From a virus, in IMG/VR virus record IMGVR_UViG_3300047497_000277, positions 1 through 29,780 of that record: DNA of 29,780 nt; one strand, given 5' to 3'. Shown here piece after piece: positions 4,801 through 29,780 of the stretch. The notes beneath the pieces are model-generated. The model was not told the DNA's origin. It did not search any database and worked only from the letters and a program-made list of their open reading frames with translations. Position numbers and translations under genes: made by a program. Position 1 is the stretch's first letter, and each line of letters begins with the position of its first letter.

Positions 4801-7593
4801 GACCGTCTTGACCCAGACGTAATACAGCGTGTTCAGCGCCAGGTTCGGGATGGTGACGCTGAGCGTGTCCTGACCGCCGACGGCGGCGGTCGCGAGATTG
4901 TTGACCGTGTTATAATAGACGACATAGAAGGCGATGTCGGATTCACTGGTGACCGGCGTCCACGACACCGTCACCTGGCGATAGCCGCCCGCGACGTTGA
5001 GGCCGGTCGGGGCCGGCGGCGGTGTCGTCTTGAACACCGTCAACACGTTCAAATCCTGCGCCCAGGCCGAGAAGAACGGCCCGGTATTGCTGGTGCTGCG
5101 CACGGCGCGGACCTGGGCATCGAACGTCGTGAGCGGCGCGATCGGCGAGATCGTCAGCGACGTCGTATTCGCGGCGACGAATTGATCCAGCCAAGGGCCG
5201 GGGCCGGTATGGGTGCGCCACTGCACCTCGTAACGGTCGAACACCGGATCGGGGCTCGCCGTCCAGGCGATTTGCATGAACGGTTGCACCGTGCCGTCGG
5301 GCTGCTCCGCGATGCCGCTGCTGATCGTCACGCCGCTGGGCGGAGCGACAAAAGCCGCGATTCCTGTCGGATCGTAAACATAGGGCGAAACATCGGCCGC
5401 GGTTTCAGCCGCTTCGCCGTAGATATTGACCGAAAGGAATTTGAGATAGAGCGTCTTGCCGACATAGGAGACGGGCGCGATCGGCAGGTCGAAAGTGAAG
5501 ACGTTGTCGTCGAGCAGGCAGAATTGTGAGCCGATCGCGTGGCCGGCGATCGGTGTCGAATAAACGCCCCGGCGCAGGCGGCCGGGCGTGCCGCCATACT
5601 TACCGAGGGCGTAAACATACGGCGCGGTCAAGTTCGCCTGTTCGAACGAAATCAACTCCGCGTCGCCGCCATCGGTGTTCTGCACGACCGCAAGGCAAGC
5701 GGGAATGAAGTTATCGCTGTTGAGCTGGCTGACGCTGGAAAGCGCGCCGAAGCTCTGTGTCAGATCCACGGACAGGGTATTGACGGTGTCGGGGTCCGAC
5801 CCTGTCGCCAAGGTCGCCGTCAGCACACCCTGCGTGGCCGCGCGATCGATGTTTCCAAGCGGCTGATAATCGACGTTGTCGAGCGAAATCAGAACCTGAC
5901 AGCCGCCCCAATTCGGGTTGGCGCCGGAGACGCCGATCACGATTTGCGGCGTGGCTTCCGAAATCGCCGACAGATAGGCCGGCCCCGGTTCGAAGATCAC
6001 CGGCGTGTTGATGGACCCCGGCGAAACCCGGTAATTCGCGATGTAACCCGTGCCTTGATTGAGATTGTATTCGGCCGTCGATCCCAGGCTGACCGGGTAT
6101 TCCTCGGCGATGACGGTGAGCGTGCCGTCGTCGTTCTCGGTGGTTTCCAGAATGCGGATGGCCTGCGACGATAGGCCGAGTCCGGAATCCGTGAGCGTAT
6201 CGAGGTCCATCGGATCGAACAGGCAGTACCGGCCGTCGAGCCCGAAGGTGTAGGTGTTGAGAATATATTCCTTTTGCAGCAGCAGCTGCACCGATGTATT
6301 CGCCGCGTTCCCATCGCAGAACAGATGCGCCTGCTTGCTGGAATCGGCGCGCCGTCCATAGGCGTCCATCAAGGCCTGATCGGTGGCCTCGGCGATAGAG
6401 GGGGCGTATTGGTTCGTGCGGTCGAGATATTCGAGTTTGATATCGTTGATCTGATCGGAGGCGCGTTGTCGGGTTAACAGCACCGGATCGTCATCGGACG
6501 AGCCGCCGGCATAGCCCGACACGAAATCGTCGTCACCGAGATTGAAACCGGCCATCGAGGGCGGCGTATAGCTGTAGCCGTTGCCGCTGACGGCGACACT
6601 GCCGCGGGGAACCATCGTCAGGATGCCGCAGGACCAGACCACCTCGGAATAGGTGTAGGTCGCGATATCGTCGATCAGCGACGATGTCTGGGTCTGGTCT
6701 GCATAGACCGGCGAAATCCACAGCCCGGATGCCAGGCAGAAGTTCTGATAGTTCGAGAGAGTGCCGGTCGAGACATAATTGATCTGGATCGCTGCGCCGG
6801 TGTCGGCCGCGTTAAAGCTGTAAACGCCGGTCGCGGCGTTGAACGCATATTGCGACGGACCCGGCGCACCGGAAACGCAGGTAAACGGAACACCCGAGCT
6901 GTCCTCGACGTCGAGGTTGTAATTGAACGCGGCGTGGTTGCCGACAGTGATCGTGTGGGGTGAGCCCGGGATCGCATAGTCTTCGCTGTTGTTGACGACG
7001 CTGCCGATCCGCGTCGCCGGGAAGCCCGCCCCATATTGCGAATTCGACAGCAGATCGACCATGACCTGGCTGGGATCGGCGTCGGCGCCGTTGGGCGCGG
7101 TGGCGTAAAGCCGCCCGTAAATCTCGAAATTGTAGCTCGGCACCGTCGCCGAGCTGGAGAGGTTCATCAGACCGAATGCGGCATAACAGATGCCGCTATA
7201 GGGCACGGCCTGATCGAGATGATTGGCGGTCAGATACGACCAGGGCGACTGGCCCAGCACGCCGGTGAAGAACGAAAAGCCGGCGGTTGAAGACGGCTGC
7301 GCGGTCTGATTGACCCAGGTCGTGCTGGTGTTGACGATCGGCCCTTCGCAAATCGCGCCCGCGACGGCGGCGGTGTAGGTGTAAGACCCGCCGCCGCCCG
7401 ATTTGCCGCTTTTGCCACCGTTCGACGACGATTTGATCGCCTTGAAATCGGTGTAACAGGTCAGGTTCATCGCCACGCGGGCAGCGCCGTAAAGGATCGG
7501 AACCGGCAGCCCGTAGCTTGACGTCTGAACCTGAATCCCAGCCAGCGCGACCGGCTGCGTCGTCTTTGCGCCACCTCCCAGCATTCCGCTCAT
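1813..7593 (-). CDS. Giant tail hub / central fiber protein
   Basis: A 1926-residue tip protein, probably the baseplate hub and central fiber of the tail. The first ~530 residues resemble the Phage-tail_3/hub part of GTA-type and lambda J-like proteins (GLPVPILYGAARVAMNL near the N-terminus; QINDIKLEYLDRTNQYAPS around residue 390). A beta-domain at residues 212-272 is inserted there and recurs in the tail tube protein. Two fibronectin-III-like domains follow, around residues 750-960 (PTGLNVAGGYRQVTVSWTPV). Residues about 968-1680 alternate short ITAxxIA-type repeats with two jelly-roll-like modules (about 1158-1327 and 1421-1598) that start GDTT.L..DP.F and end GYW.(F/M)GN. The last ~245 residues form a beta-rich tip. 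The ATG at 7593 has AGGTG five bases upstream. The long TIM-barrel region of the GTA hub is not apparent. It ends two bases before the assembly-like gene. Confidence 0.88.
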   Translation of the reverse strand: MSGMLGGGAKTTQPVALAGIQVQTSSYGLPVPILYGAARVAMNLTCYTDFKAIKSSSNGGKSGKSGGGGSYTYTAAVAGAICEGPIVNTSTTWVNQTAQPSSTAGFSFFTGVLGQSPWSYLTANHLDQAVPYSGICYAAFGLMNLSSSATVPSYNFEIYGRLYATAPNGADADPSQVMVDLLSNSQYGAGFPATRIGSVVNNSEDYAIPGSPHTITVGNHAAFNYNLDVEDSSGVPFTCVSGAPGPSQYAFNAATGVYSFNAADTGAAIQINYVSTGTLSNYQNFCLASGLWISPVYADQTQTSSLIDDIATYTYSEVVWSCGILTMVPRGSVAVSGNGYSYTPPSMAGFNLGDDDFVSGYAGGSSDDDPVLLTRQRASDQINDIKLEYLDRTNQYAPSIAEATDQALMDAYGRRADSSKQAHLFCDGNAANTSVQLLLQKEYILNTYTFGLDGRYCLFDPMDLDTLTDSGLGLSSQAIRILETTENDDGTLTVIAEEYPVSLGSTAEYNLNQGTGYIANYRVSPGSINTPVIFEPGPAYLSAISEATPQIVIGVSGANPNWGGCQVLISLDNVDYQPLGNIDRAATQGVLTATLATGSDPDTVNTLSVDLTQSFGALSSVSQLNSDNFIPACLAVVQNTDGGDAELISFEQANLTAPYVYALGKYGGTPGRLRRGVYSTPIAGHAIGSQFCLLDDNVFTFDLPIAPVSYVGKTLYLKFLSVNIYGEAAETAADVSPYVYDPTGIAAFVAPPSGVTISSGIAEQPDGTVQPFMQIAWTASPDPVFDRYEVQWRTHTGPGPWLDQFVAANTTSLTISPIAPLTTFDAQVRAVRSTSNTGPFFSAWAQDLNVLTVFKTTPPPAPTGLNVAGGYRQVTVSWTPVTSESDIAFYVVYYNTVNNLATAAVGGQDTLSVTIPNLALNTLYYVWVKTVDTSGNFSATALGPGEATTLGVESSDITGQIVEAQIAANSITAANLISGLELVQVVTSIGSASSATSNVAYESSTGTLYRWNGSAWISSITAADIPAASLDITKFASGITPVQIVSSLPGAATEGDTAVLTTDGQLYRYHSGAWTVAVPAVNVTGALTDAQIANLAATKITGTLTDAQIAGLSAAKLTGQITTTQITPGAVTTPLLAAGAVETANLAAGAVTANKLTIGDTTNLVIDPQFKDQSYWTLFGPGVGTTVYYGSGGSAPDIGSPNIVVVNTALAGAATGLYGANTPFISVTPSQSYNLAATVEPIGAIPSVPAVVYVNCYAADQTTLLGSFSAASSLITGAQNVNVTFTPPAGAVYAQCNIFVNIGTVTSTSGYWCFGNVSLIRLAIATTIADGAITTGKVAANAITAGKIAANTITAAQILAGTITTTQLAASTITASNIAANTITAANMAANSITTASIAAAAVNAGQIAAGAVTASKLYIGDTTSLILDPNFADPTVWAIGTNGTTTPGYQSGTATEAAMGLIKGVVWNCSLFSTSTNLSYTIQSVLISCDGNTQYRQRALIRSFGANKYFYLETRYYDNTQTYISLSNTYFDPSSYVDPYGVSVTATSGCSAEFISTSPANAAYVLCLFFVSNAEPTPPSTAGSGYWEMGNPRFERVTTGTLIADGAITTDKIAANTITAANIASGTITAGQIATGTLTAAQIAAGGITGTNIAGGTITGSNIAALTITAANISAGTITGDKITGNFFTGNYFTATGGGGASAVVMDGQTGTSGGLQYGPYFQVIDSSGATRMIAGQWGSQFGLFVWNSAGVEILSASDLGVNVVGTSNIAANAATETNTGTYGSYARTIDNNTPGDGVNHFPAGTTQYVGLAAVGETLVAGGSLQIIITIQGFLAAGLYGGDAYMIVTRDGADTGWTVLRSGSSTAADGSVTLVFTDTTATTSAGYHVYQLEFVLTVPAGPTTPLKQALVGVTSMSIVANVFKR
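2557..4745 (-). repeat. Tandem ITAxxIA peptide repeats around duplicated modules
   Basis: Inside the hub gene, three blocks of degenerate repeats encode units such as NTITAAQILAG, STITASNIAA and GTITAGQIATG, about ten residues each: roughly 4360-4130, 3625-3340 and 2790-2560. They flank two paralogous ~170-residue modules. At DNA level the repeats read as recurring 'gcggcgatctgnnnggcggtgatcgt' variants. The modules themselves (about 4120-3615 and 3330-2800) look more AT-rich than the surrounding gene. The periodicity suggests a repetitive beta-structured or trimeric shaft. Confidence 0.7.
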
Positions 7594-11125: not shown

Positions 11126-12277
11126 TCAGCCCGGTACGTTAAGAAGGCGCAGCTGGCCTGACAGCGCCTTCACCAGCGCCCCGCCATTGTTCATGAACAG
11201 GCGCTGTACGCTTTGGGCATCGACCGCTTGCACATTGACGTTGATGTGAGTGTCGCCGCCGGCGGTCCCCCCAGTCGAACCCGCGGCGCCGCCGTTTTGG
11301 AAGAAATCACGCATCGGCGCGGCAATCGCGGCGGGCAGGATCGATTCCTTGGCGTGAGCCTGGACCAGCATGTCGGTCGGCAGGTTCCAGACGCCGCCCG
11401 CAGCGGAGAGCCCGGGAATGAAACTGAGCACGGTCAGTTCGGCAGTCTCGCCCGCAGGAACCGCCGCGGGTCCGATTTCCGGCGCCATGAAGGCCGCGAC
11501 GCCGGCGCCTGTCTCAGCTGCCGATACCGTAATCGATTCGATCGCCTTACCCAACATATCGAGGATGCCGGACGAGGCGCCCGCGGCGTCGGAGGCCGAG
11601 CGGATCGCATTGCCGGCCTCGGTCGCTTCGGTCATCGTCAGTTCGGACGCGATCCAGTTGGTGGCGCGTTTGACCGCCATGCCGACGAAATCGGAAATCA
11701 CCGCCTGCCCCATCTTGGCGGTGGCCTGGCGCAAAGTTTCGTTGCCGCGAATGATGCCGTTTAGCGACGATTGGAATGCGTTGCCGATCGGCGACAGGAT
11801 CGACATCCAAGACGCCTCGGATTCCTTGACCCGCTGCTGCTCAAGCGCGCGCATCTTGGCATCGTGCTTGACCTCTTCGGCATCGGCCTTGTTCTGCAAT
11901 TGCTGGCGAACCTGCGCGCTGGCGCTCTGGGCCTGATTCTCTTTGTTCAACTCGCTCCGGATAGCGGCGTAGCGCGCCTCCTCGATACGAATTTGCTGGC
12001 TGATCGCCTCGTCGGCAGACTCTTTATAACTGTCCTTCAGGATCGCTATTTCCGCCGTTTGCTGGGCGAAGCGGTCATCGATCTCTTTCAAACTCCCTTT
12101 TTCGTCGGCAAGAGTTTTCAAGGATTGGCCGGCGCCGGCAGCGGCGGTCCCGATGCCGGCCAAGTTTTCCTGGATTTCCTGCGCCACCTGCGCGACCTGT
12201 TGCGATGAATCGGATAGTCCGCTTTGCAGCGCGTTGTTATCGACCTCGAAACCGATCTGAATCTGATTGTCGGTCAT
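11126..12277 (-). CDS. Tape measure protein (short)
   Basis: A 383-residue protein with a tape measure's composition. There is a long Gln/Ala/Glu-rich helical region (residues about 20-150, such as SQQVAQVAQEIQENLAGIG and RIEEARYAAIRSELNKE), then a hydrophobic Ala/Gly-rich region around 225-300 (SAAETGAGVAAFMAPEIGP), and a C-terminal HINVNVQAVDAQSVQRLF, the usual last segment of such proteins. At roughly 1.5 angstrom per residue for extended helical tape measures, a tail of only about 55-60 nm is implied, close to the short GTA-like tail. It lies between the tail-chaperone region and DUF2460, with a lipoprotein gene inserted just upstream. Confidence 0.85.
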   Translation of the reverse strand: MTDNQIQIGFEVDNNALQSGLSDSSQQVAQVAQEIQENLAGIGTAAAGAGQSLKTLADEKGSLKEIDDRFAQQTAEIAILKDSYKESADEAISQQIRIEEARYAAIRSELNKENQAQSASAQVRQQLQNKADAEEVKHDAKMRALEQQRVKESEASWMSILSPIGNAFQSSLNGIIRGNETLRQATAKMGQAVISDFVGMAVKRATNWIASELTMTEATEAGNAIRSASDAAGASSGILDMLGKAIESITVSAAETGAGVAAFMAPEIGPAAVPAGETAELTVLSFIPGLSAAGGVWNLPTDMLVQAHAKESILPAAIAAPMRDFFQNGGAAGSTGGTAGGDTHINVNVQAVDAQSVQRLFMNNGGALVKALSGQLRLLNVPG

Positions 12278-15982: not shown

Positions 15983-17476
15983 TCAGCCGTTGGCGATGTT
16001 GGCGATAACGCCCATCGCGAACGGGGCGTAGATCGCCAGGACTTCCTCGGCATAGACGCCGAATTCGTAGGCGCGGGTCTTTAGCGGCCAATCCATCCGG
16101 TAATAGTCGCGGCGGGTTTTGACCTCGGCGACGTTCGGGACATTGCTGGACTGGTACTGCGCCGGCAGGTTCTCCGACCAGCCGACGATGGTGCCCGGCG
16201 GCACGAAGGGGTGGATCTTGACCGGGATCTTGTAGCCCCCGTCGAGCGCGAAGGGGTTATAGTAATACTCGACGACGCCGTTCGCGATAATAGCGAAAGG
16301 ATCCTGGCCGTCGCTGGTGTAGCGCAGCAGCGGACCGGAGGCGCTGGAGAGCACCTTGTTGGTGATCGAGCGCTGTTCCTGGCTGTTGACGTAGAGGACG
16401 GTCGGGCTGACCTCGTACTGATCCCACATCTTCTGCAGCATCAGGTCGATCTCGTTGACCGAACCGCGGCCCGACGCGGTCAGCGGCGTGCCGGTTCCGG
16501 CGGTGCCGGTGGCGAGATAGTTCACATAGGCGCCGGACCCGGCCTTGAGCGCCGCCGTCAGCAGACCGTCATAGGCAAGACCCGGATTGGCCGAGTTGTC
16601 GGCGGTGATCGCGGTCGCGGCCTGGCTGCCGGTGGCGAGCGGCGCGGAGAAGGCGACGCTGTTGATCGTGGTGATCGCCTGCAGCTTTTCCGCGCCCGCG
16701 ATACCGACATACCAGGCATAGCCGACGGCGCCGACCGCGGCCGTGACGGAAGCGAACAGGGTCTGGCCGAAGGTCACCGCTTGGGTCGCATTGGCCGAGG
16801 GAGCCGACGAACCGCCGTTGAGGCTGAAGCCGGCGCCGTCGGCGCCGGTGATGGATTTCGAGGTCGCCACCCCGCCGGTGAGGCTGGAATTACGATAACC
16901 TTCATAGGTCAGCGCCACGACGATCACCGAATAGGTCGCGGCCGGCAAAGTCGCGCCGGTGCCGCTGGCCGACAGCGACGGCGTGGCCGGCGTGCCGAGC
17001 TGAAGCGAGCCATTGCCGCCGAGAAAGGCGTTTTCTTCCTTCAGCATCATCTTCTGCAGCAGCCGCATGGTGGCGGTGGCCTGGATATCCTCGAAGCCCT
17101 GGGCGGCCGAGACCGCCTCGAAGGTCACCGAATCCTCCTCGCCGATCGTGGCGAAGGAGGCCGAGCGGGTCGAGGTGTTATAGCTCATCCTGCCGGAGCG
17201 CTGGCCTTCCGGCACCCAGCCCATCGCATCCCAGCCGGAGCCGATGATGGCGTTGACCTGCCGCCAGTTGGTGGCCGTGCCGGTGCCGCCGCCGACGCGC
17301 GGGAGCACGTTGCGGATGGGCGTGGCGGCGGGGTAGAGGTTCTTGGCCGAAGGCTGCAGGTCGTAGGCGACCAGACCGGTCGAGGTGGTGATCGCCTTGG
17401 ACAACACTTCGGGGGTGGCGTGAGACAAGGCATCCTTGACCTGCGCCAAGGTATCGGCGGTTACATTTCCATTCAT
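15983..17476 (-). CDS. Major capsid protein, HK97 fold, with inserted domain
   Basis: A 497-residue capsid subunit. N-terminal features VAYDLQPSAKNLYPAATPIR and WVPEGQRSGRMSYNT, and the C-terminal VLYVNSQEQRSITNKVL plus YYNPFALDGGYKIPVKIHPF, fit a capsid family I recognise from GTA-like and actinophage-like siphophages. Residues about 162-292 are a beta-rich insertion (YSVIVVALTYEGYRNSS, VGAVGYAWYVGIAGAEKLQ) of Ig/FnIII type that would project from the capsid surface. Only about 45 residues precede the conserved core, so the usual HK97 delta (scaffold) domain is short or absent. GGAG lies about ten bases before the ATG. The 205-base gap upstream shows no clear gene; any promoter there is weak. 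Confidence 0.88.
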   Translation of the reverse strand: MNGNVTADTLAQVKDALSHATPEVLSKAITTSTGLVAYDLQPSAKNLYPAATPIRNVLPRVGGGTGTATNWRQVNAIIGSGWDAMGWVPEGQRSGRMSYNTSTRSASFATIGEEDSVTFEAVSAAQGFEDIQATATMRLLQKMMLKEENAFLGGNGSLQLGTPATPSLSASGTGATLPAATYSVIVVALTYEGYRNSSLTGGVATSKSITGADGAGFSLNGGSSAPSANATQAVTFGQTLFASVTAAVGAVGYAWYVGIAGAEKLQAITTINSVAFSAPLATGSQAATAITADNSANPGLAYDGLLTAALKAGSGAYVNYLATGTAGTGTPLTASGRGSVNEIDLMLQKMWDQYEVSPTVLYVNSQEQRSITNKVLSSASGPLLRYTSDGQDPFAIIANGVVEYYYNPFALDGGYKIPVKIHPFVPPGTIVGWSENLPAQYQSSNVPNVAEVKTRRDYYRMDWPLKTRAYEFGVYAEEVLAIYAPFAMGVIANIANG

Positions 17477-18175: not shown

Positions 18176-18226
18176 GATCGAACGATCACTGATATGTTGG
18201 CATTACAAATATGAAGTCAATAATAT
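18176..18226 (+). promoter_or_regulatory. Promoter and dyad ahead of the diiron gene
   Basis: A perfect dyad GATCG-AA-CGATC (18176-18187) precedes a plausible promoter: TTGGCA (18197-18202), 18-base spacer, TAATAT (18221-18226). The expected transcript start near 18233 lies only about eight bases before the ATG at 18241, so the message may be nearly leaderless. The dyad could be an operator; its regulator is not evident here. Confidence 0.4.
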
Positions 18227-18240
18227 ACCTGTCTCACCTT

Positions 18241-18972
18241 ATGACAGATAGCATGAATAGCTTGGCGATGCCGATCGACACCGGATTACTGGTTTGCGAA
18301 TTCGAGATGAACAACGCGGCGATGGCGGTCGAGACATCGGCGGTCATGGCGCGGTTCATCGGCGACAGACCGCTGCATGCGCGGTTCCTGAATACACTGT
18401 CGATGCTGGAGCATCTGGGCAGCCATAAGATCATGGCGACCCAGCGCGGCAAGACCATCGACCAGCCGACCCTGAAACATCTGGCCGACGAAACCCGCCA
18501 CGCCTTCTTCTTCAAGCGCCACGCCGACCGCGAGGCCGGCCGCACGATGGATTACGAGCACGACGACATGGTCGCCGCGTCGTCGGCGCGCCGATACTTC
18601 CACCGGCTGGAAGCCGAAATCGCGCGCGTGTTCGATGCCGACGCCCATCCGCGCGCGGTGTACCTCACCATGTCTATGATCGTCGAGTTCCGAGCAGTGT
18701 GGGGCTATCGCCTATACCAGGCGGCGCTGGAAAGCGCCGGTCACACCGTGTCGCTGAAAAGCCTATTGGCCGAGGAACGCGGACATCTGACCAATATGGC
18801 GGAGCGGCTGCACGGACTTTCCGAGCTCGATCATGCCCGCGTTCGGGAACTCTGCGCGATCGAGCAGCGGCTGTACCGAAAGCTGCTATCGGCCTTCGCC
18901 GGCAGCGTGGCGACCTTGCCGTTGAGCATCGATAATGCGGTGACGACGGTGGCGGGGATGGTGGCGGGTTAG
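18241..18972 (+). CDS. Ferritin-like diiron protein (accessory gene)
   Basis: The only substantial plus-strand gene: about 243 residues from the ATG at 18241 (an earlier ATG at 18211 overlaps the predicted -10 and is less likely; neither has a clear ribosome site). It is all-helical with a full carboxylate-bridged diiron ligand set: Glu57 (MLEHLG), Glu84-x-x-His87 (DETRHAFF), Glu149 (MIVEFRAV) and Glu179-x-x-His182 (EERGHLTN), in the classic E...ExxH...E...ExxH order. It is therefore probably an oxidoreductase, oxygenase or iron/peroxide-handling protein in the cytosol; the substrate cannot be read. It lies between prohead protease and capsid genes, opposite to the late operon, with its own promoter and a strong terminator, so it can be expressed in the lysogen. 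Exact subfamily not recognised. Confidence 0.7.
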   Translation: MTDSMNSLAMPIDTGLLVCEFEMNNAAMAVETSAVMARFIGDRPLHARFLNTLSMLEHLGSHKIMATQRGKTIDQPTLKHLADETRHAFFFKRHADREAGRTMDYEHDDMVAASSARRYFHRLEAEIARVFDADAHPRAVYLTMSMIVEFRAVWGYRLYQAALESAGHTVSLKSLLAEERGHLTNMAERLHGLSELDHARVRELCAIEQRLYRKLLSAFAGSVATLPLSIDNAVTTVAGMVAG

Positions 18973-20773: not shown

Positions 20774-22162
20774 TTAAGAGGATGCAGAAGAGGGCGGCTG
20801 TTGGGTTGAGCCGCTCAACACACTCGCCAAGGTGACGGCGCCGGCGGCGGTGTAGATGAGCGGGGTGTCGCCGCCGGCGATGGGGTCTTCGCCGGATTCG
20901 GCGCGGGCTTCGTTGATGGTTTTCAGGCCGGATTTGAGTTTGATATCGGTGATCTGGGCCTGTTTCATCGGGTCGGCGGATTTTTCGTCGATCCATTCGA
21001 ATTCCAGGTCGCTGTAACCAAAGTCGTCCTCGATCACCTGATCGACCAGGCATTTGATCCACAGCATGATCGGGCCGAGGCCCTCGCCCAGCGCCATTTC
21101 CTGGGCGTTGTCGGCGGTGGCGCGGTTCATCTGGCGGGTGAAGGGCGCGGGCGATGTCGAGAAGGCGTAGCACACCACCCGCGCCAGCCATTCGTCGAAA
21201 TCATCCTTCAGCGGCGGCTCGCGCATCGCCTGGTAGCGGAAATCGGCCGGGACGAAGCGGGCGTGGCGACGCTCGGCCGTATTGCCGGCCATGATGGTGT
21301 CCCAATATTCCTGAAACTGCACGATCTGATCCATCGTCCAGCCCTGGGGCACGGAGAGGATCGCCTCGGGCATGTTGCCTTCGGTGAAATATTGCAGCTG
21401 CGCCAGCTGTCGGCGCAACGCGATGTTGACGGTGGTGATGATCTGTTCGACCGGCGAAAAGCCGTAGACCTTCGCGGTGCGGGGGTTGCGCGGCAAATAG
21501 AGCAGCTCGTCGCGCGCGAAATCGGCCTTGGGGATGCCGTGCAGCACCTGTTGATAGGCGGGATCGGGCGGCACGGGACTGCGCCCGTTATCGTCGATCA
21601 GCACCTTGATCGTCGCGCCGTCCACCGGCTCGAGCGCCAGCAACGCGCCGCCGACGCTGCGCGCCTTGTAGAGCGTGGCGGCGTCGATGACGAACAAGTC
21701 TTCCAGCAGCATGCGCAGCCAGCTGCCCCAGCGATGCAGGCCGTCGGGCTTGCGGAAGAAACCCTCCAACTCGGCGACGCGGGGATCGGTCGCGGCAGGC
21801 AGGCGCTTAGCCGAAGTTTGGCCGGGTTTGGGCCGGATGTTCCAGCGCAGGCGTTCGACCTGATCCTTGCGGGTTTCGATCACCAGGCGCAGCACATCGT
21901 AGCTGTCGGCCAGCGCCCGCATCTGCACGAAGGACACGCCTTCTTCGCCGCGCGGCTGATATTGGATGTTGAGGCCGGACATGTAATCGAACCGGCGGGG
22001 TTCGATGAAGGCCGGCGCGGCGGGCTCGATCGGCTGGAGCGGGCCGAACCAGTTGTCGGGCGAGACGCCGCGGATTGCATAGCGCAGGCCGGCGGTCAAC
22101 CTGCCAATAAAGCCGGGCTGGGCGGCGACCGTCAGCGGCGTCAGCTTACCTTCAGGCGGCAT
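20774..22162 (-). CDS. Portal protein
   Basis: A 462-residue portal, the dodecameric ring at the capsid vertex through which DNA is packaged. Typical portal features: MSGLNIQYQPRGEEGVSFVQ, then LADSYDVLRLVIETRKDQVE with LRWNIRPKPGQ, a middle YLPRNPRTAKVYGFSPVEQI followed by TTVNIALRRQLAQLQYFTEG, QFQEYWDTIMAGNTAERRHA, and the C-terminal stem/wing segment IKLKSGLKTINEARAESGED. The length is normal for the HK97/SPP1 class. Its start overlaps the fiber-adaptor gene by 11 bases. It is separated from the terminase by the host-interaction block, which is unusual: portal usually follows terminase directly. Confidence 0.9.
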   Translation of the reverse strand: MPPEGKLTPLTVAAQPGFIGRLTAGLRYAIRGVSPDNWFGPLQPIEPAAPAFIEPRRFDYMSGLNIQYQPRGEEGVSFVQMRALADSYDVLRLVIETRKDQVERLRWNIRPKPGQTSAKRLPAATDPRVAELEGFFRKPDGLHRWGSWLRMLLEDLFVIDAATLYKARSVGGALLALEPVDGATIKVLIDDNGRSPVPPDPAYQQVLHGIPKADFARDELLYLPRNPRTAKVYGFSPVEQIITTVNIALRRQLAQLQYFTEGNMPEAILSVPQGWTMDQIVQFQEYWDTIMAGNTAERRHARFVPADFRYQAMREPPLKDDFDEWLARVVCYAFSTSPAPFTRQMNRATADNAQEMALGEGLGPIMLWIKCLVDQVIEDDFGYSDLEFEWIDEKSADPMKQAQITDIKLKSGLKTINEARAESGEDPIAGGDTPLIYTAAGAVTLASVLSGSTQQPPSSASS

Positions 22163-22610
22163 CGGGCAACCCCACGGCGTTGAAGAAGGAATGGATCGCG
22201 ATGCGGCGGCCGTTGACCGTGCCGCAACTGAAGCCGAGCGCGTACCGCCCGGCCGGAGGCTGCCCGATCGCCTGAGCCGCCACCGTGCCGATCAGCCCGG
22301 GCGCGCCGTCGAGCGCCGTGGCGTAATTCGAAACCGGCGTATCGACGGGAAAGAACAGAACCTCCAGGCTGCCGGGATCGAGGCTGTCGCCGGCATCCAG
22401 CGCCCAGCCGAGATCGATGCCGAAGACATCGTCGGCCGCGACCGACAGCGCCGGAAAATCGCGCCCGGCATAGCCGGAGATCGTCGCGGGGCGCAGGGTG
22501 CGGCGGAGATTGAGGGTCAATGTGCTCACAGCGCCACCCGCCAAACCGTCAAGCAGAAAAGACACGGGTCCGCCCTGGCCCAACCCCAATGCGATCGGCC
22601 AACCGGACAT
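22152..22610 (-). CDS. Probable phage fiber-tail adaptor protein
   Basis: 152 residues, mostly beta. MSGWPIALGLGQGGPVSFLL opens, FGIDLGWALDAGDSLDPGSL marks the middle, and AGRYALGFSCGTVNGRRIAI with HSFFNAV closes. The ending resembles proteins annotated as phage fiber-tail adaptors in alphaproteobacterial prophages. Its place just downstream of the esterase fiber and the accessory beta-protein fits a role attaching the fiber to the tail. AGGAG lies eight bases before the ATG. Family assignment is from memory of the C-terminal pattern and is moderate. Confidence 0.6.
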   Translation of the reverse strand: MSGWPIALGLGQGGPVSFLLDGLAGGAVSTLTLNLRRTLRPATISGYAGRDFPALSVAADDVFGIDLGWALDAGDSLDPGSLEVLFFPVDTPVSNYATALDGAPGLIGTVAAQAIGQPPAGRYALGFSCGTVNGRRIAIHSFFNAVGLPDAA

Positions 22611-22803: not shown

Positions 22804-23382
22804 CTAAGCCGCGCGTTTGCGGGAGGTGGGGGCGACGGCGTTGTCGAGGGTGAAGCTCATGGCGGCGGTCGTCGCATCCAGCTTGCGCGCGGTCAGGGTC
22901 GTTCCCGATTGGTCGACATTGGTCAACACCGACAGCATACCGTAGAGCAACTGCGCCAGGGTGCCCGGCTGTCCGTTGGCGGCATAGCTTTCGGTCAGGG
23001 TGTTGACCAAAATGCCGAGCGCGGCGCCCGCCGTTCCAGCCGCGGCGTGGCCGGACAGGCCGGCATCCAGCACGTCGCCGGCGACCGCGGTAATGTCGGG
23101 AGGCTGCAGCTGCAGCCCCAACGTCGCGGTGCCGTCGATATAGCGATCGCCGGCCGCGCTCAGACCCGCCCCGGCATCGACCTGCCAGATCGCCTCGCCG
23201 GCGGCGGCGGGATCGTAGGTGAATTTATACGCGCCCTGCCCCACTTCGGAGATCGCCGGCGGCGCGACGTCGGAATTGTCGGAAAGCTTCTTGAAAAACA
23301 CGAAGCCCGGCGTCAACCCCGCCACCCGCGCCCCACCGGCCGTGCTGTCGCGCACCACAAAACTAAACGGAATAGCGGTCAT
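22804..23382 (-). CDS. Tail fiber accessory beta-domain protein
   Basis: 192 residues from MTAIPFSFVVRDSTAG. I choose the ATG at 23382 because it overlaps the fiber gene's stop (ATGA) and has AAGGG upstream; the longer frame to 23460 reads back through the fiber gene. The N-terminal half is an Ig-like beta sandwich (RVAGLTPGFVFFKKLSDNSD, GQGAYKFTYDPAAAGEAIWQ), similar to upper-baseplate/BppU-like N-domains. A helical Ala-rich middle follows (HAAAGTAGAALGILVNTL). The C-terminus MSFTLDNAVAPTSRKRAA has the strand typical of phage baseplate accessory proteins. Likely a partner of the esterase fiber. Confidence 0.6.
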   Translation of the reverse strand: MTAIPFSFVVRDSTAGGARVAGLTPGFVFFKKLSDNSDVAPPAISEVGQGAYKFTYDPAAAGEAIWQVDAGAGLSAAGDRYIDGTATLGLQLQPPDITAVAGDVLDAGLSGHAAAGTAGAALGILVNTLTESYAANGQPGTLAQLLYGMLSVLTNVDQSGTTLTARKLDATTAAMSFTLDNAVAPTSRKRAA

Positions 23383-25868
23383 GATCGCGCCCTTTTGAGT
23401 TGATGGGATGGGGTCGTGGGGGTGGTGGGGGACAAAGCAACAATCACTTGTATTGCCCAAGTGGCGGCCGTTGCTTGATCGCCATGATCGTTCGGATGCA
23501 GCAAATCTGCGCTGCGCTGAAGAAATGGGCGCCGCTGGAAATAGTTGTACGGGCCTAGCGGGTTGGAATGAAAAATCGTTGTCCCGTTCGCGAGTTCCGC
23601 CATTGCCGCGTCGTAAGCGATCAGACGCCCGGAATTCTGAACGCTATACGAACCGGACGCTTCGCCCTGAAACATCGGGCCGAGCAGATGGACGGCCTTC
23701 AGCGTCGAAATATGCGCGAACAGATACGCGATGATTGACGCGTAATTTGACTGATAGGTTGATGGCGGGGTCGCTACTCCGGTTTGCGCATCATTCGCCC
23801 CGAGATTTGAGACGATCCGCGTAACGCCCGCCGCCGAGAGGGTCGCAACAGCGGCAGGCAAATTCGATCCGCTCGGAAGCCAGTCGTTCGTCGAAGTTCC
23901 CGATATAGCAAGATCAAGAGAAAAACTTAATCCGCCGCCGGTCGCCGTGGTGTTCGTCCCGCCGTACCATTCTTTCGACGGCATTCCGAAATTAAGCTGG
24001 TCGATCATCGCCGCAAACGGGCTTTCGATGGTCGAATACGATCCCGCTTCGATGGAATCTCCGATGCCGCCGACGATTTCGAGGTTTGCCGCCGCCATCG
24101 TCGTCACACTGATTTGCGTCGAATAAACCGTCGTGCTCGATACGGTGTCGGTATAAGCCTGCGTGTAGAAATACGAGGTCGCCGGTGTGCGCCCGGTATC
24201 GATATAGCTTTCGGCCGTCGCGCCGCTGATTGCTGACCCGAGCGAACCGCCGCTTGTCGAGCGATACCATTGGAAGGTAAAGCTCCCGCTGCCGCCCGTC
24301 GCTTCGGTCGAGGAAAGCTGAACCGTCTGTGCGCCGACATAGGTCGCATAGGCGATGCCCGCGCCGCTCGCCGTGTTGACCACGCACGAGGCGCTATGGT
24401 TGGCGCTGAATGCTCCGGTTCCGGTCGCCGTCAGCGTCTTCGTCGTGCCGCCCGCGCCGCTCGCCGGGGTGTAGGTGAAGGTTTGCGGCGTGCTCGCGTT
24501 GACCGACGTAAAGGTCAACGACGATGGGGTAAATGTGCCGCCGCCGCTTGCGTCCGAAAGTGTGATCGTTTCATTCGACGCCGAAGTGCCGTTCAGCGTC
24601 ACGGTGTAATTGCCGGTCGCCACGCTCGGGACCGTCGTTTGCGACGACGGCGTCAGCGTAAAATTCGTTGCCGACGTGTTGGTTACCGCGCACGATGCTG
24701 TGTGTGTCGCGCTGAATCCGCCAGATGCTGTCGCGCTCAATGTGAGCGTTTCCGTTGGATCGCTCAAAGCAGGCGTGTAGGTGAACGTCTGCGGCGATGC
24801 TGTCGTGAACGTCAAGATGGACGGGGTGAACGTCCCGCCATTGCCGCCATCCGAAAGGGCGATCGAGGTTGAAGCGGACGGAACACCGTTCGGCGTAATC
24901 GTGTAACTGCCGGTCGGAACACCGACGTTTGTACTTTGACTTGATGGCGTAAACGTGAAGTCGGTTGCCGATCCGACCGAGGTCGTGAAAGAGAACTCGT
25001 TGGACCAAACAATCGCGCCCGTGCTGTTGGTCGCGGTTTGAATGTTATAATAGGTCGTCGAAGATGCGAGCCCGGTATAATTGACTGTCAGCCCCGTTGC
25101 ACCGCTGACAAGGTTCGATGTCTGCGGGACGAAATTGACGTTGTTGGCGCGGTACATCTGATAGGTGTACGGCCCCGTCCCGCCTGTCGCGCCGGTGCTT
25201 GTGATCGTCGCGGAGTTCCCGGTTATGCTCGATGCACTTAGAGTACCACCGGCAAGCGAAGAGTTTCCGGTAACTTGCAGATTGTCGATGGCGTAGCTTG
25301 ATGCGCCGGCATTATAGAATCCGGCATAACCGGCCGCCGTGACCGAACTATCAGTTTCGTTGACCTGATAAGACCCCGGCTCGGTCGTGCCAGCCGTCCA
25401 GACCTTGAGGCTGATCGTCGTGCCAATTGCCGCCGCGCGGATGCTGATAGCGGTTCCTGCGATATAGGAATAGCCCGTGTTCTGCACGCCGCCGACCGTG
25501 GAAAGCGAACCGGAGACGCACTTGTAAAGCTGAACTTGTACTGTTCCGCCGACGAAATTAACGAGCCAAACATAATAGTTTTGCGCCGCAGAATCACTGC
25601 GGATGATTGGCTGTATACCAAGGTTGTTGACCAGCGATTTCGTAACGTAAGCGATCGACATGTCGGCGGTCGCGGGGATTGAAACACCACTACCGCCAAG
25701 CAAGAGAACCTTGCCGCCGTCAGTTTGAGACGGGTTTTGAAAATCATTTGGGGACGAGTAGGCCGCGCCATCGGCGACGACGCTCCATGTCCCTGAAATC
25801 GCCGTGAACCAAGCGGGCAGCGCGCCCGCTGTATCGGCGTCGAAGTCGTCAGCGAAGAATAAGTTCAT
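23379..25868 (-). CDS. Receptor-binding tail fiber with SGNH/GDSL esterase domain
   Basis: An 829-residue adhesin-like protein. Residues 1-200 form a jelly-roll/LamG-like domain (NLFFADDFDADTAGALPAWF, then SYQVNETDSSVTAAGYAGFY). An FnIII-like domain follows at about 205-295, two tandem Ig-like repeats at about 297-396 and 397-500 (each starting xDFTFTPSSQ/NFTLTPSSQ and containing GGTFTPSxLTFT), and another FnIII-like domain at about 500-590. The last ~230 residues are an SGNH hydrolase: block I GGIGDSIEAG with nucleophile Ser near 606, block III LGANDAQTG, and block V DLLHPNDHG with the Asp-His pair. It probably deacetylates or de-esterifies a surface polysaccharide during adsorption. It lies between terminase and portal, followed by an accessory protein through an ATGA overlap. 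Confidence 0.8.
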   Translation of the reverse strand: MNLFFADDFDADTAGALPAWFTAISGTWSVVADGAAYSSPNDFQNPSQTDGGKVLLLGGSGVSIPATADMSIAYVTKSLVNNLGIQPIIRSDSAAQNYYVWLVNFVGGTVQVQLYKCVSGSLSTVGGVQNTGYSYIAGTAISIRAAAIGTTISLKVWTAGTTEPGSYQVNETDSSVTAAGYAGFYNAGASSYAIDNLQVTGNSSLAGGTLSASSITGNSATITSTGATGGTGPYTYQMYRANNVNFVPQTSNLVSGATGLTVNYTGLASSTTYYNIQTATNSTGAIVWSNEFSFTTSVGSATDFTFTPSSQSTNVGVPTGSYTITPNGVPSASTSIALSDGGNGGTFTPSILTFTTASPQTFTYTPALSDPTETLTLSATASGGFSATHTASCAVTNTSATNFTLTPSSQTTVPSVATGNYTVTLNGTSASNETITLSDASGGGTFTPSSLTFTSVNASTPQTFTYTPASGAGGTTKTLTATGTGAFSANHSASCVVNTASGAGIAYATYVGAQTVQLSSTEATGGSGSFTFQWYRSTSGGSLGSAISGATAESYIDTGRTPATSYFYTQAYTDTVSSTTVYSTQISVTTMAAANLEIVGGIGDSIEAGSYSTIESPFAAMIDQLNFGMPSKEWYGGTNTTATGGGLSFSLDLAISGTSTNDWLPSGSNLPAAVATLSAAGVTRIVSNLGANDAQTGVATPPSTYQSNYASIIAYLFAHISTLKAVHLLGPMFQGEASGSYSVQNSGRLIAYDAAMAELANGTTIFHSNPLGPYNYFQRRPFLQRSADLLHPNDHGDQATAATWAIQVIVALSPTTPTTPSHQLKRARS

Positions 25869-25958
25869 TTATTGGCACCGAGATGCTACGATTTTTTGAA
25901 AGTAAGGTGAAATGAAATAATCTTCGGATACACATTACAGCTAAGTGGGGCGATTTTC

Positions 25959-26117
25959 ATGATCTCTCTAATCGTGCTGTTAATCCTGAACTATAATTTA
26001 ATTCTCTCAGTCGAGCGTTACCACAAGCGTGAATATGAATTATATTTGTCGACTTGGATCGCCGAGGAGTGCGTTCACGATGAGTTAGAAGACTGGGCTT
26101 GGAAGGCTGATTGGTGA
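25959..26117 (+). CDS. Possible 52-residue single-pass membrane peptide
   Basis: An ATG at 25959 opens 52 codons to TGA at 26117. The product has a hydrophobic start (MISLIVLLILNYNLILSV), a basic patch (ERYHKREYE) and an acidic, Trp-rich tail (EECVHDELEDWAWKADW), which reads like a genuine small membrane protein rather than random sequence. It lies alone on the plus strand in the AT-rich 265-base gap between the fiber and acyltransferase genes. A GGGG about nine bases upstream is at best a weak ribosome site. Unknown function; could be chance. Confidence 0.3.
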   Translation: MISLIVLLILNYNLILSVERYHKREYELYLSTWIAEECVHDELEDWAWKADW

Positions 26118-26133
26118 GAGCCTACAGAGGTGG

Positions 26134-27159
26134 TTAGCGTATCCTAAATAGACGCCGAGACAGTCTTATGCCGGGGCGATCCACAAATTTATGCGACGTC
26201 CAAGACACCCCTAGTACAGCGGCAACCGACCCAAACCCGTAAATTAGCAGCGGATGAAACGACTGCATCGCAGCATGTCTCACCAGCAGCAGAACGGGTA
26301 TCTGCACGAGATAGATCGAATAAGATACGTTGCCCAACCAATGCAGCACCCTAACCGACAGTGTCCGGGCGCAACCGCCGCGATTATCCGAAAGCGCCGC
26401 CACCAGACAAACCTCAACGGCGATTGCAGCTAAATCGCAGCGCGCCAAGACCGCTACCGCCAGCATTGCTATCAAGAGCAACACCATCCGGTCTCGTGAA
26501 ACCCAAGCAGGAAAGCCGCCACGCGCTAGTGAAATTCCGATTCCAAATTCAGCAAAACAACGCACAATAGGAAACCAGCTATTCACGAAAACTATATCCA
26601 TCGACCACGCGTGTCGCCATGACACCCAGACGATCGCGCTGCCGCAAAAACAGACCATTAATGCGGCTAAGCTGGGTTTTCTCAGCCCGATTATTGCAAA
26701 AACCGGAAAGAGAAGGCTAGCGGCCCATTCAGTACTGATCGACCAATCTGGTGGGTTCAATAAAGTCGAAGACGCCGGAAGTACATTCCATCGCTGCACG
26801 AGTGCCGCTTCGCTAACGATGAAGAACCACCACCTGAAATGAATGCCCTGAACCGCCAAGATTAGAAGGCAAGCGCCCAGCACAACCCAGTGCAGCGGAA
26901 AGAGCCTTCCGAAACGCTTTCCGATGAAATTTAAATAGGTCCGAAAACCGAAAGAACCCGAGAACTCAGGGCCATGCCGTCGCCCCAAAATGTAACCGCT
27001 GAGCACAAAGAAGAAATCAACGGCCAAATAGCCCCGGTTCACTATGGGAAGGTCATCCCAACCAGGCACCGGCGACCATTTTCCGAGGTGGAAGATCAAA
27101 ACCCACAGCGCGAATATTCCGCGCATTGCGGTTAGGGATTTGATTTCCTGCATTCGCAT
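26134..27159 (-). CDS. Acyltransferase-3 family membrane protein
   Basis: A 341-residue polytopic membrane enzyme of the acyltransferase-3 family (OafA/NodX-like), which transfers acetyl or other acyl groups to surface sugars. The N-terminal signature is LTAMRGIFALWVLIFHLGKW, with the RG...H pattern and likely catalytic His around residue 24. The loop GYLAVDFFFVLSGYILGRRH is the second hallmark. About ten hydrophobic segments follow, including a late WLGNVSYSIYLVQIPVLLLV. ATG at 27159 or 27153 (MQEIKSL); neither has a strong ribosome site. It sits between terminase and the esterase fiber and appears more AT-rich than the virion genes. Likely a lysogenic-conversion gene altering host polysaccharide; the sugar is unknown. 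Confidence 0.85.
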   Translation of the reverse strand: MRMQEIKSLTAMRGIFALWVLIFHLGKWSPVPGWDDLPIVNRGYLAVDFFFVLSGYILGRRHGPEFSGSFGFRTYLNFIGKRFGRLFPLHWVVLGACLLILAVQGIHFRWWFFIVSEAALVQRWNVLPASSTLLNPPDWSISTEWAASLLFPVFAIIGLRKPSLAALMVCFCGSAIVWVSWRHAWSMDIVFVNSWFPIVRCFAEFGIGISLARGGFPAWVSRDRMVLLLIAMLAVAVLARCDLAAIAVEVCLVAALSDNRGGCARTLSVRVLHWLGNVSYSIYLVQIPVLLLVRHAAMQSFHPLLIYGFGSVAAVLGVSWTSHKFVDRPGIRLSRRLFRIR

Positions 27160-27223: not shown

Positions 27224-28489
27224 TTATCGCGTGCGCCCGGCGCGGTCGCGGTAGAAATCGAGCAGGCCGGTGTCGGCGGGTTCAAGTTTCAGTTCGGTGA
27301 CGGCCCAGACCAGCGCGTCGACGCGGTCGGGGGAGCCCTCGCCGGAGGTGGGGGACCAGTTGCACATTTGATCCTCCAGGGTTGGAAATGCGCCGGCGTG
27401 CTTGACGCGGTTTTGTTCGTACAGGGCGGAGACCGGTTCGGCGCGGGTTCGCTTGCCCTTCGAGGCGGTTACGCCCTTATAGGCGACATTGGGATCGACC
27501 GTGCGCAGCATGATCGCGACCATATCGCCGCCGTTGTTGGTTTCGCCGACGATGCGGTCGGCCTTGTGATCGGCATAAAGGTTGACGGCGCGGCGGCCCC
27601 ATTCATCCGGCGTGAAGCGGCCGGAGGCGTCGGCCAGCACATAGACCAGCCCGTCGACGCCCAGCCCCGCAACCACGATGCCGGTTTCGTCCGAACCCTG
27701 GCCGGCGGTGACGGCGGGGTCGATGGCGACGACGATGCGCTTCATCTGCGGCATGTCATCCGGGGCGACGCGGGCGGATTCGATGCCGGCGCGCGTCCAC
27801 AGCGCGCCGTCGGCCTGGTCCAGCAGCTCCGCCTCGATCTCCTGCCGGCCGAGGCGGGTGCCCTGGTATTTGGCGAGGATGACCGTCATGAAGGACGGGG
27901 CGAGGTTTTCCTGGTTGGCGAAGGTCGAGCCCCTGGTCAGAACGGTGGTCGGCGCGGCCGCCAGATCGCGGATCAGCCGGGTGGGCTTGGGCGTGGTGGT
28001 GACCACCACGCGAGGGCGCTCACCCAGGCGTAGACCGAACATCAGCATGTCCCAGGCGTGGGAATAGCGCCAGGACGACAGCTCGTCACACCAGGCGAAA
28101 TCATGCTGCGGCCCGCGCAAACGCTCGGGCTCGTCGGCGGAATAGCATTCGGCGACGGCGCCGTTCGGCCAGGTCAGCCGCCGCTTGGACGGCTCATATA
28201 TCGGTTGGCACCAGGGCGGCGAGACGGCCAGGATGCCGCTTTCGCCCTCGACCATCACGTTGCGCACATCGGCGGCGGTGGGCGCCACCAGGGCGATGCG
28301 CCGGGCGCGGCCGGCCTCGACCTCAGCGCCGACCGTTTGCGCGCCGGTGCGGGTTTTGCCGAAACCGCGGCCGGCGAGCAGCAGCCAAACCAGCCACGTG
28401 TCGGAGTCCGGCGGCAACTGCTCGCGCCGGGCGCGCCATTTCGACCAGTTCCAGAACAGCCGCAGCTTGTCCTCATAAGTCGGGGCCAT
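27224..28489 (-). CDS. terL: Terminase large subunit
   Basis: The DNA packaging motor, about 421 residues from MAPTYEDKLRLFWNWSKW; ATG at 28543 would add 18 residues and overlap the small subunit more, and neither has a good ribosome site. The ATPase half has Walker A LLLAGRGFGKTRTGA (residues about 36-50), LVAPTAADVRNVMVEG, Walker B DFAWCDELSSW and the coupling segment VVVTTTPKPTRLIRD. The nuclease half has VVAIDPAVTAGQGSDETGI (metal-binding Asp), DRIVGETNNGGDMV and a final DRVDALVWAVTELK aspartate. This is the GTA/HK97-like TerL type. It is normally followed by portal, but here by an acyltransferase and fiber genes. Confidence 0.93.
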   Translation of the reverse strand: MAPTYEDKLRLFWNWSKWRARREQLPPDSDTWLVWLLLAGRGFGKTRTGAQTVGAEVEAGRARRIALVAPTAADVRNVMVEGESGILAVSPPWCQPIYEPSKRRLTWPNGAVAECYSADEPERLRGPQHDFAWCDELSSWRYSHAWDMLMFGLRLGERPRVVVTTTPKPTRLIRDLAAAPTTVLTRGSTFANQENLAPSFMTVILAKYQGTRLGRQEIEAELLDQADGALWTRAGIESARVAPDDMPQMKRIVVAIDPAVTAGQGSDETGIVVAGLGVDGLVYVLADASGRFTPDEWGRRAVNLYADHKADRIVGETNNGGDMVAIMLRTVDPNVAYKGVTASKGKRTRAEPVSALYEQNRVKHAGAFPTLEDQMCNWSPTSGEGSPDRVDALVWAVTELKLEPADTGLLDFYRDRAGRTR

Positions 28490-28901
28490 CCGGCGCACCG
28501 AGGGCAGCCGTTCGTTTTCGGGCTGCGATGCGATCAAGCTCATCGGTGATTCGCCGCTCAAGTTCGGCCTCATCGGTGGGGCTGTGGGCAATGGCTTTAT
28601 GGGCGCTGGGGACGGTCATGTCGAAATTCTTTCGTTCCCGGTCCATCAGCAGGCACGCGACCCGGCAGACCGAGGCGAAACCGGCGATCAACCCGCCGCC
28701 GCCCAGCAGTCGGCCGAGGCTGCCGTCGTCCAGCGCGTCGATCATATGGCCCAGATGCCCGACCAGACACATGGCGGTGGCCCGCATGCCGGATAGATCG
28801 TCAAGATGCACCGCGGCCAGGCCATCGGCGGCGATCGGGCTTTGCTGCACGCTGCGCGCGTCCGGCGCACGACCGTGGGTCTGGCTGGATGTGCCGACCA
28901 T
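28473..28901 (-). CDS. Probable terminase small subunit / TerS-like protein
   Basis: 142 residues starting MVGTSSQTHGRAPDARS, with GAGG six bases before the ATG. It is largely helical: LSGMRATAMCLVGHLGHMID, then LIAGFASVCRVACLLMDRER, and a charged coiled-coil tail DEAELERRITDELDRIAARK. The helical core plus coiled coil fits small terminase oligomers that recognise packaging DNA, and its end overlaps the large subunit. There is no obvious HTH motif, so the call rests mainly on position. It is the first gene downstream of the TTGACA promoter at 28967-28995. Confidence 0.6.
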   Translation of the reverse strand: MVGTSSQTHGRAPDARSVQQSPIAADGLAAVHLDDLSGMRATAMCLVGHLGHMIDALDDGSLGRLLGGGGLIAGFASVCRVACLLMDRERKNFDMTVPSAHKAIAHSPTDEAELERRITDELDRIAARKRTAALGAPDGPDL

Positions 28902-29132: not shown

Positions 29133-29780
29133 CTAACGCCCGTTATATTTGCCCACGATGGCCTGGACCTCGGTCCATTCGGCGCGGGGGAGGGTGAAGT
29201 CTTCGGGGGGGTTGTATTGGCGCAGGCGCCAGTGGGCGTCGTCCCAACCCAGCAGGCGCTTGATGAGGACATGGGGAGTGCCGTCGGCCTCCTTGCGGAC
29301 CAGGATGACATCGGCGTTGCGGCGGGGCGGCAGAGCGGGGTGGATGAGCGCGATGTCGCCTTGCTCATAGGCGGGGCTCATCGATTCGCCGACGACATAG
29401 ACGCCGTAGCCGGACCGCACGGTCATCAGGGGGTCGGGCCGCATCATCTGCTGTATGGGGTCGGAGGAGACCAGCATGGCGCCGGCCGGCCCGCCCTGGG
29501 CCGCGCCGTAGACCGGGAAATCGCGTTCGGGCGGCTGCTGATTGGGTGTGGGCCGGCCGGGCGGGGCGGATGCGGATTCGCTGCCGGTCAGATGGGCGAC
29601 GGCGATGTCGAGGACGCGGGCCAAAGCCTCCAGCGTGGCATAGCGCGGGCTGGCGATGCGGCCATCGATGATGTCGCGCACGGCGGTGATGCCTAGGCCG
29701 GCGGCGAGCGACAGGCTGCGGGGATTATACCCCGCCTCGCGCATCAACCGATCCAGCCTTTGAGAGAGAATTTCGCTCAT
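29133..29780 (-). CDS. S24/LexA-type phage repressor
   Basis: A 215-residue CI-like repressor. The N-terminus is an HTH_3/XRE domain (residues about 5-66: RLDRLMREAGYNPRSLSLAA, LGITAVRDIIDGRIASP, LEALARVLDIAVAHLTG). A proline-rich linker (about 68-88) leads to an S24 self-cleavage domain with nucleophile Ser133 in GESMSPAYEQGD and Lys174 in HVLIKRLLG. A likely cleavage site is Ala99-Gly100, 33 residues before the serine, as in LexA-type proteins. It probably holds the lysogenic state and is inactivated during the SOS response. It starts at the last window base, so its promoter is not visible. It is transcribed in the same direction as the structural genes and ends ~230 bases before the small terminase. 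Confidence 0.88.
   Translation of the reverse strand: MSEILSQRLDRLMREAGYNPRSLSLAAGLGITAVRDIIDGRIASPRYATLEALARVLDIAVAHLTGSESASAPPGRPTPNQQPPERDFPVYGAAQGGPAGAMLVSSDPIQQMMRPDPLMTVRSGYGVYVVGESMSPAYEQGDIALIHPALPPRRNADVILVRKEADGTPHVLIKRLLGWDDAHWRLRQYNPPEDFTLPRAEWTEVQAIVGKYNGR

Follow-up and report, generated by a model that had tools for sequence, protein, structure and literature searches.

An acyltransferase-3 (AT3) membrane enzyme and a fibre that ends in an SGNH esterase domain, both with intact catalytic motifs, are encoded side by side in the window, by which we mean the whole 29,780-base virus record analysed here. The two genes are constantly adjacent in the close relatives of this phage, the AT3 has been replaced by non-orthologous AT3s, and in one near-twin the two genes have been exchanged as a block. 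We propose, with a probability of about 0.55, that AT3 and fibre form a host-interaction cassette that serves entry by deacylation and a change of receptor in the lysogen, and that is exchanged as one piece.

Gene order and protein domains

Read along the minus strand, the window encodes in order a CI-like S24 repressor, the terminase large subunit, the AT3, the 829-aa fibre, a 192-aa protein, a 152-aa protein and the portal, followed downstream by the head protease, a 497-aa protein and then the tail genes (Table 1). Both open reading frames that an earlier note on this DNA had singled out, those of AT3 and fibre, are present where it had put them. Its placement of the pair between terminase and portal also holds, with the qualification that two more genes (22804-23382 and 22152-22610) separate the fibre from the portal; the first of these begins with an ATG that overlaps the fibre stop codon (ATGA). 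No gene or promoter was seen in the AT-rich gap between AT3 and fibre, and promoter and terminator scans of the window gave nothing above chance. AlphaFold modelling of the 192-aa partner protein was weak (mean pLDDT 62.8), and structure comparison gave no informative match.

An opposite-strand ORF of 253 aa separates the head protease gene from the 497-aa gene both in the window (18211-18972, plus strand) and in the relative L013 (9917-10678, minus strand); the window copy has no PHROG match. The ends of the record coincide with gene ends, namely the stop codon of the ORF at 1-684 and the repressor ATG at 29780, as if the record had been trimmed to genes from a longer contig.

Table 1. Coordinates of the features discussed, with strand and the basis of each assignment
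Feature	Position	Strand	Basis
AT3 membrane enzyme, 341 aa	26134..27159	-	Pfam PF01757, PHROG 3333, motifs
AT-rich gap between AT3 and fibre, GC 0.42	25869..26133	.	Composition
Fibre protein, 829 aa, C-terminal SGNH esterase domain	23379..25868	-	Pfam, alignment, AlphaFold model
Fibre residues 1-205, beta-rich N-terminal domain, putatively lectin-like	25254..25868	-	Alignment, all-beta model
Fibre residues 206-592, tandem Ig/fibronectin-like stalk	24093..25253	-	Ig/SprB matches in relatives, model, Foldseek
Fibre residues 593-829, SGNH esterase domain (S605, N692, D788, H791)	23379..24092	-	Pfam, motifs
Replaced block, AT3 and fibre, vs IMGVR_UViG_3300047462_000736	23432..27096	.	blastn flanks
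192-aa partner protein, beta domain and helices, conserved C-terminal half	22804..23382	-	Sequence, model
152-aa conserved protein overlapping portal start	22152..22610	-	Conservation
Terminase large subunit, upstream border of slot	27224..28591	-	Pfam, PHROG
Portal protein, downstream border of slot	20774..22162	-	Pfam, PHROG
CI-like repressor with S24 peptidase domain	29133..29780	-	Pfam, PHROG
Conserved 497-aa protein at major-capsid position	15983-17476		PHROG 13692 (function not named)

The neighbour of the fibre had been taken for an acyltransferase-3 enzyme, and profile searches bear this out: its product matches Acyl_transf_3 (PF01757; E 2.1e-20, 73.5 bits vs a cut-off of 31) and PHROG 3333, 'O-acetyltransferase' (E 2.2e-39). 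The motifs R13-x10-H24 and R82-x-x-R85 are intact and all invariant in 16 AT3s; R-x10-H and RxxR have been described as essential to AT3 enzymes (PMC9558356). Simple hydropathy analysis gave 14 overlapping peaks, which indicates a multi-pass protein but makes the count unreliable; the family expectation is about ten transmembrane helices. The GC content of the AT3 gene is 0.525 vs 0.64-0.68 in the neighbouring structural genes, and it falls below that of the portal gene in 15 of the 15 relatives compared (by 14.5 points on average), a moron-like composition. The enzyme probably adds acyl groups to surface sugars.

Pfam likewise agrees with the description of the fibre as ending in an SGNH esterase. 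Lipase_GDSL_2 matches residues 602-798 (E 1.2e-9, over the cut-off), and the GDS, GxND and DxxH blocks are intact (D604/S605, G690-x-N692-D693 and D788-x-x-H791), with D604, S605, G690, D693, D788 and H791 invariant across 14 aligned fibres. Neither the SGNH domain nor the AT3 profile found a sequence match in the PDB. The AlphaFold model of the fibre is nearly all beta as far as residue 600 or so, with pLDDT mostly 73-93 in the block of residues 1-205, and we infer that this N-terminal domain, common to all complete fibres of the group, is lectin-like. Ig/SprB matches were found in the stalks of relatives, and Foldseek matched the fibre model to tandem FnIII/Ig chains, a result that reflects only the tandem Ig/Fn domains. 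The AlphaFold fold of the SGNH domain was poorly modelled and was set aside. No signal-peptide-like sequence or membrane anchor is visible on inspection of the fibre start. The fibre probably removes acyl groups from sugars of the bacterial surface. No isolated phage was found that carries the fibre of the window or a partner protein of the group.

Some relatives depart from the intact blocks. In L026 (3490-6000) and L031 (2-2248) block III of the SGNH domain reads GGAD in place of GxND and the conserved Asn is lost; the second SGNH protein of L026, a contig that also has a second AT3, keeps this Asn. In L014 (3595-5739) a premature stop falls within the SGNH domain, upstream of the DxxH block.

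By eye, the alignment separates two esterase classes. Class A comprises the fibres of the window, L013, L014, L022, L026, L031 and L037, and class B those of L012, L015, L016, L017, L019, L020, L032, L033, L035 and L041 together with the second SGNH protein of L026. CE2_N, the N-terminal domain of carbohydrate esterase family 2, matches most of class B, several of the matches falling below the curated cut-off, and one class-B fibre has a weak match, far below the cut-off, to an acetylxylan esterase/glucomannan deacetylase model (AxeC2). These matches suggest that the class-B esterases may be carbohydrate deacetylases.

Class-B fibres align through their C-terminal CE2/SGNH part with Leuconostoc neck passage structure proteins (27% identity, E 5e-11), and this part matches PHROG 7918 at E 2e-14; L033, the second SGNH protein of L026 and L135, another phage with a related SGNH fibre, all match. 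The class-A fibre of the window has no PHROG match at E 0.01, so none to PHROG 7918. In L135 the related fibre gene follows a central tail fibre J gene. The earlier note had spoken of a tail esterase; the esterase stands, but the fibre may sit on the tail, the neck or the head, as the esterase part of the relatives resembles neck passage structure proteins. Nearly all SGNH fibres of the group share a short C-terminal tag, GYSRxRxxN-like or SHQLKRARS (near 23382-23410 in the window), which is present even on a stand-alone SGNH protein that lacks lectin and Ig parts (L026:6055-6984), and the partner proteins end in TLDxATAPTSRRRAA-like tails. These shared tags and tails are possibly an anchoring signal.

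The CI-like S24 repressor is an indirect sign of a temperate phage, and lysogeny is likely; a search of 17 fragmentary records gave no integrase. In a scan of genome contigs for the host, the best relative of the portal in sequenced genomes was at most 50% identical.

The pair in related phages

Relatives were retrieved by their portal, which gave about 30 close ones (77-100% identical to the portal of the window) and many at 43-58%. The close group used below consists of 16 records, the window included, with portals at least 78% identical, a visible AT3-fibre stretch and duplicates removed. AT3 lies directly upstream of an SGNH fibre in 16 of these 16 records, which are metagenomic and fragmentary contigs of one phage lineage and not 16 independent events. 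Their AT3s fall into three subfamilies, of 12, 4 and 1 proteins, that share little identity with one another. In L041 and L037 the only intact AT3 is inverted, and L037 keeps, beside its subfamily-2 AT3, a stretch that matches the first 61 residues of subfamily 1; L026 has two AT3s, the extra copy inverted, and two SGNH proteins. Since there are three AT3 subfamilies and two relatives with an inverted AT3, the pairing has been rebuilt more than once.

None of 66 more distant loci gave a profile match to the AT3 or to the SGNH fibre. In the 15 distant loci of the viral set that show both terminase and portal, neither gene is present and the gap measures from 8 bases to 5 kb; in three of the 15 (L053, L067 and L089) the slot holds large proteins whose N-terminal domains are of the pectate-lyase/endosialidase type. 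A Fisher test of the 16/16 count against the distant relatives was set aside because the contigs share ancestry and because it had been computed with 14 distant loci and not 15. As the content of the slot varies in the wider group, the position of the block between terminase and portal, rightly noted before, loses its oddness: this is a variable accessory slot. In L016, L020, L023 and L035, ORFs that resemble RelE/ParE-type toxins or antitoxins by sequence only are inserted between the fibre gene and the 152-aa gene.

Outside the group, AT3 genes adjoin SGNH genes in the unrelated Arthrobacter phages Hum25 and Kukla. No SGNH domain was detectable in a Klebsiella phage that has an AT3 beside its tail genes, a case that adds nothing to the pairing, and L135 has no AT3 within the available DNA.

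The clearest sign that AT3 and fibre can move together comes from the near-twin IMGVR_UViG_3300047462_000736 (L012, L117), which matches the window at 95-98% identity over most of its sequence. The flanks aligned by blastn are 97% identical, end at reverse-strand position 2684 and resume at 6350, so that the match runs through AT3 codon 21 and the replaced block begins at AT3 codon 22 and stops about 17 codons short of the fibre end. Within it, identity between window and near-twin drops to 36% for the AT3, 37% for the N-terminal domain of the fibre and 28% for the SGNH domain. Since the replaced block spans AT3 and fibre, both genes changed together, which suggests that the two can travel as one piece. 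The 1926-aa tail protein of the near-twin is 95-98% identical to that of the window; smaller differences are an unaligned window stretch at reverse-strand 11520-12195 and, in the twin, about 1.1 kb of extra DNA and a stop codon within the tail gene.

Other pairs of relatives share one gene and differ in the other. L020 and L035 have SGNH domains that are 90% identical and unrelated AT3s (24%), L017 and L020 have AT3s that are 72% identical and SGNH domains at 35%, and L037 and the window have a similar fibre esterase with unrelated AT3s. Over the 16 records, AT3 and SGNH distances are uncorrelated (Mantel r=0.06, p=0.21). Within AT3 subfamily 1 a correlation appears (r=0.42, p=0.005) that is gone when the window, L012 and L013 are left out. 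We therefore reject strict co-evolution of AT3 and esterase, given the Mantel r of 0.06 and a subfamily-1 signal that rests on three members. The co-occurrence check that the earlier note had called for was run on these records and found the two genes together in every one; independent assortment, which it had set as the contrary outcome, is absent at the level of gene presence (16/16) and evident at the level of alleles (L020/L035, L017/L020). AT3 and SGNH fibre are linked in presence, and no lock-and-key match between them is seen. The idea that the AT3 puts back the very group that the esterase removes is not supported by these data, and because the alleles reassort we make no claim that each AT3 acts on the group its neighbour removes.

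Proposed role and alternatives

We infer that the fibre would act as an adhesin on the virion, with an SGNH domain that strips acyl groups, most likely O-acetyl, from surface polysaccharide during adsorption, and that the AT3, which may be expressed in lysogens or at a late stage of infection, would carry acyl groups across the inner membrane. Acylation of the surface polysaccharide by the AT3 would alter the receptor and reduce adsorption by phages that use it, a serotype conversion of the kind brought about by Oac of phage Sf6. Because a phage that changes its adhesin would also change its receptor, the two genes would be kept adjacent and exchangeable together, here as a cassette in the variable slot between terminase and portal. 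A bolder form of the proposal, which we consider possible rather than likely, is that this is a dedicated adhesin slot where an AT3 and an esterase fibre anchored at head or neck would be one heritable unit, so that a single recombination could change receptor specificity together with the matching exclusion.

The pairing might also carry no functional coupling, if the gap between terminase and portal were a recombination hot spot that gathers adhesins and surface-modifying morons. The reassorting AT3 and esterase alleles would fit such a gap, as would the toxin-antitoxin-like ORFs and other inserts in the slot and the pectate-lyase-type spikes, or nothing at all, found there in distant relatives. 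We nevertheless hold this explanation to be rather unlikely: AT3s of three unrelated subfamilies stand directly beside an SGNH fibre in every member of the close group, and hitch-hiking alone does not predict that the same enzyme class is chosen repeatedly. A different coupling is conceivable in which the fibre would need, or clear away, an acyl group that the AT3 had put in place, either as a receptor for sibling phages or because the esterase would free progeny from acylated debris. Acylation can be part of a receptor, as for the G7C spike, which needs acetylated O-antigen (PMC10743462), progeny detachment is mentioned by the authors on Serratia phage vB_SspM_BZS1 (PMC7556043), and L026 has a second AT3 and a second SGNH protein. 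The same fibre esterase occurs with unrelated AT3s, however (L020/L035 and L037/window), which is unexpected if the esterase recognises the group set by its own AT3, and we judge this coupling improbable.

AT3 and SGNH domains are also known as partners within one acylation pathway, fused or separate (PMC9558356), and the SGNH domain of the fibre could in principle serve the AT3 as its transferase in the periplasm, in the manner of OafA/OatA or PatA/PatB, and the pair would then only acylate the host surface. This we regard as very improbable, given a fibre with no visible signal peptide or membrane anchor and with about 590 beta-rich, adhesin-like residues; a related SGNH fibre follows the central tail fibre gene in L135, and Oac and other stand-alone AT3s are believed to act without a partner (PMC9558356). 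Two near-identical phages that differ mainly by the AT3-fibre pair, and pairs of phages that share one of the two genes, are natural experiments. With them one can ask directly if a phage inherits its entry specificity along with its exclusion in the lysogen and how strictly the two must match, and also if phages compete in general through the addition and removal of acyl groups.

Comparison with known systems

Phage adhesins that deacetylate and acetylases encoded by prophages have both been described before, and the pairing of the two has been put forward as speculation. For Serratia phage vB_SspM_BZS1, entry by means of a deacetylase fibre and exclusion by an AT3 have already been proposed, an idea that the authors call highly speculative (PMC7556043). 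Its p27 (deacetylase tail fibre) and p24 (acyltransferase-3) bring the same enzyme classes into the structural region as in the window; in BZS1 the AT3 is opposite to the structural genes and two other ORFs lie between the AT3 and fibre genes, whereas in the window the AT3 gene belongs to the head module and immediately precedes that of the fibre. Cassette exchange is visible in the window and its near-twin, and the parts of the BZS1 report consulted describe none (PMC7556043).

In Shigella phage Sf6, as predicted for the window, a virion enzyme acts on the surface polysaccharide that a phage AT3 modifies: Oac acetylates the O-antigen, which hampers the endorhamnosidase of Sf6 itself and so prevents superinfection (PMC9558356). 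That tailspike enzyme cuts the backbone, whereas the virion enzyme of the window is a predicted esterase, and the likeness between its AT3 and Oac is one of enzyme class. SGNH esterases on virion adhesins, as predicted for the fibre of the window, occur in Klebsiella prophages and as gp63.1 of G7C, whose spike is a deacetylase needed for infection (PMC10743462). In the Klebsiella prophages, two SGNH receptor-binding fibres are active esterases, some of the prophages also encode acetyltransferases, and the authors discuss acetylation and deacetylation as a layer of phage competition; unlike the group studied here, no constant adjacent AT3 is described in the parts of that report consulted (PMC13123978).

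The neck passage structure protein of Leuconostoc phages LN25/Ln-8 (PHROG 7918) resembles the C-terminal part of class-B fibres, but its gene adjoins holin and endolysin genes and does not lie in a terminase-portal gap. Acinetobacter prophages that encode a tailspike depolymerase and a Wzy polymerase follow the same logic of an entry enzyme with a capsule-altering gene, and in two of them the common sequence covers wzy together with the C-terminal portion of the depolymerase gene; their enzymes, a backbone depolymerase and a polymerase, differ from those of the window (PMC13228068). The kind of system is already known, and the new part is the constant, block-exchangeable pair in the terminase-portal slot.
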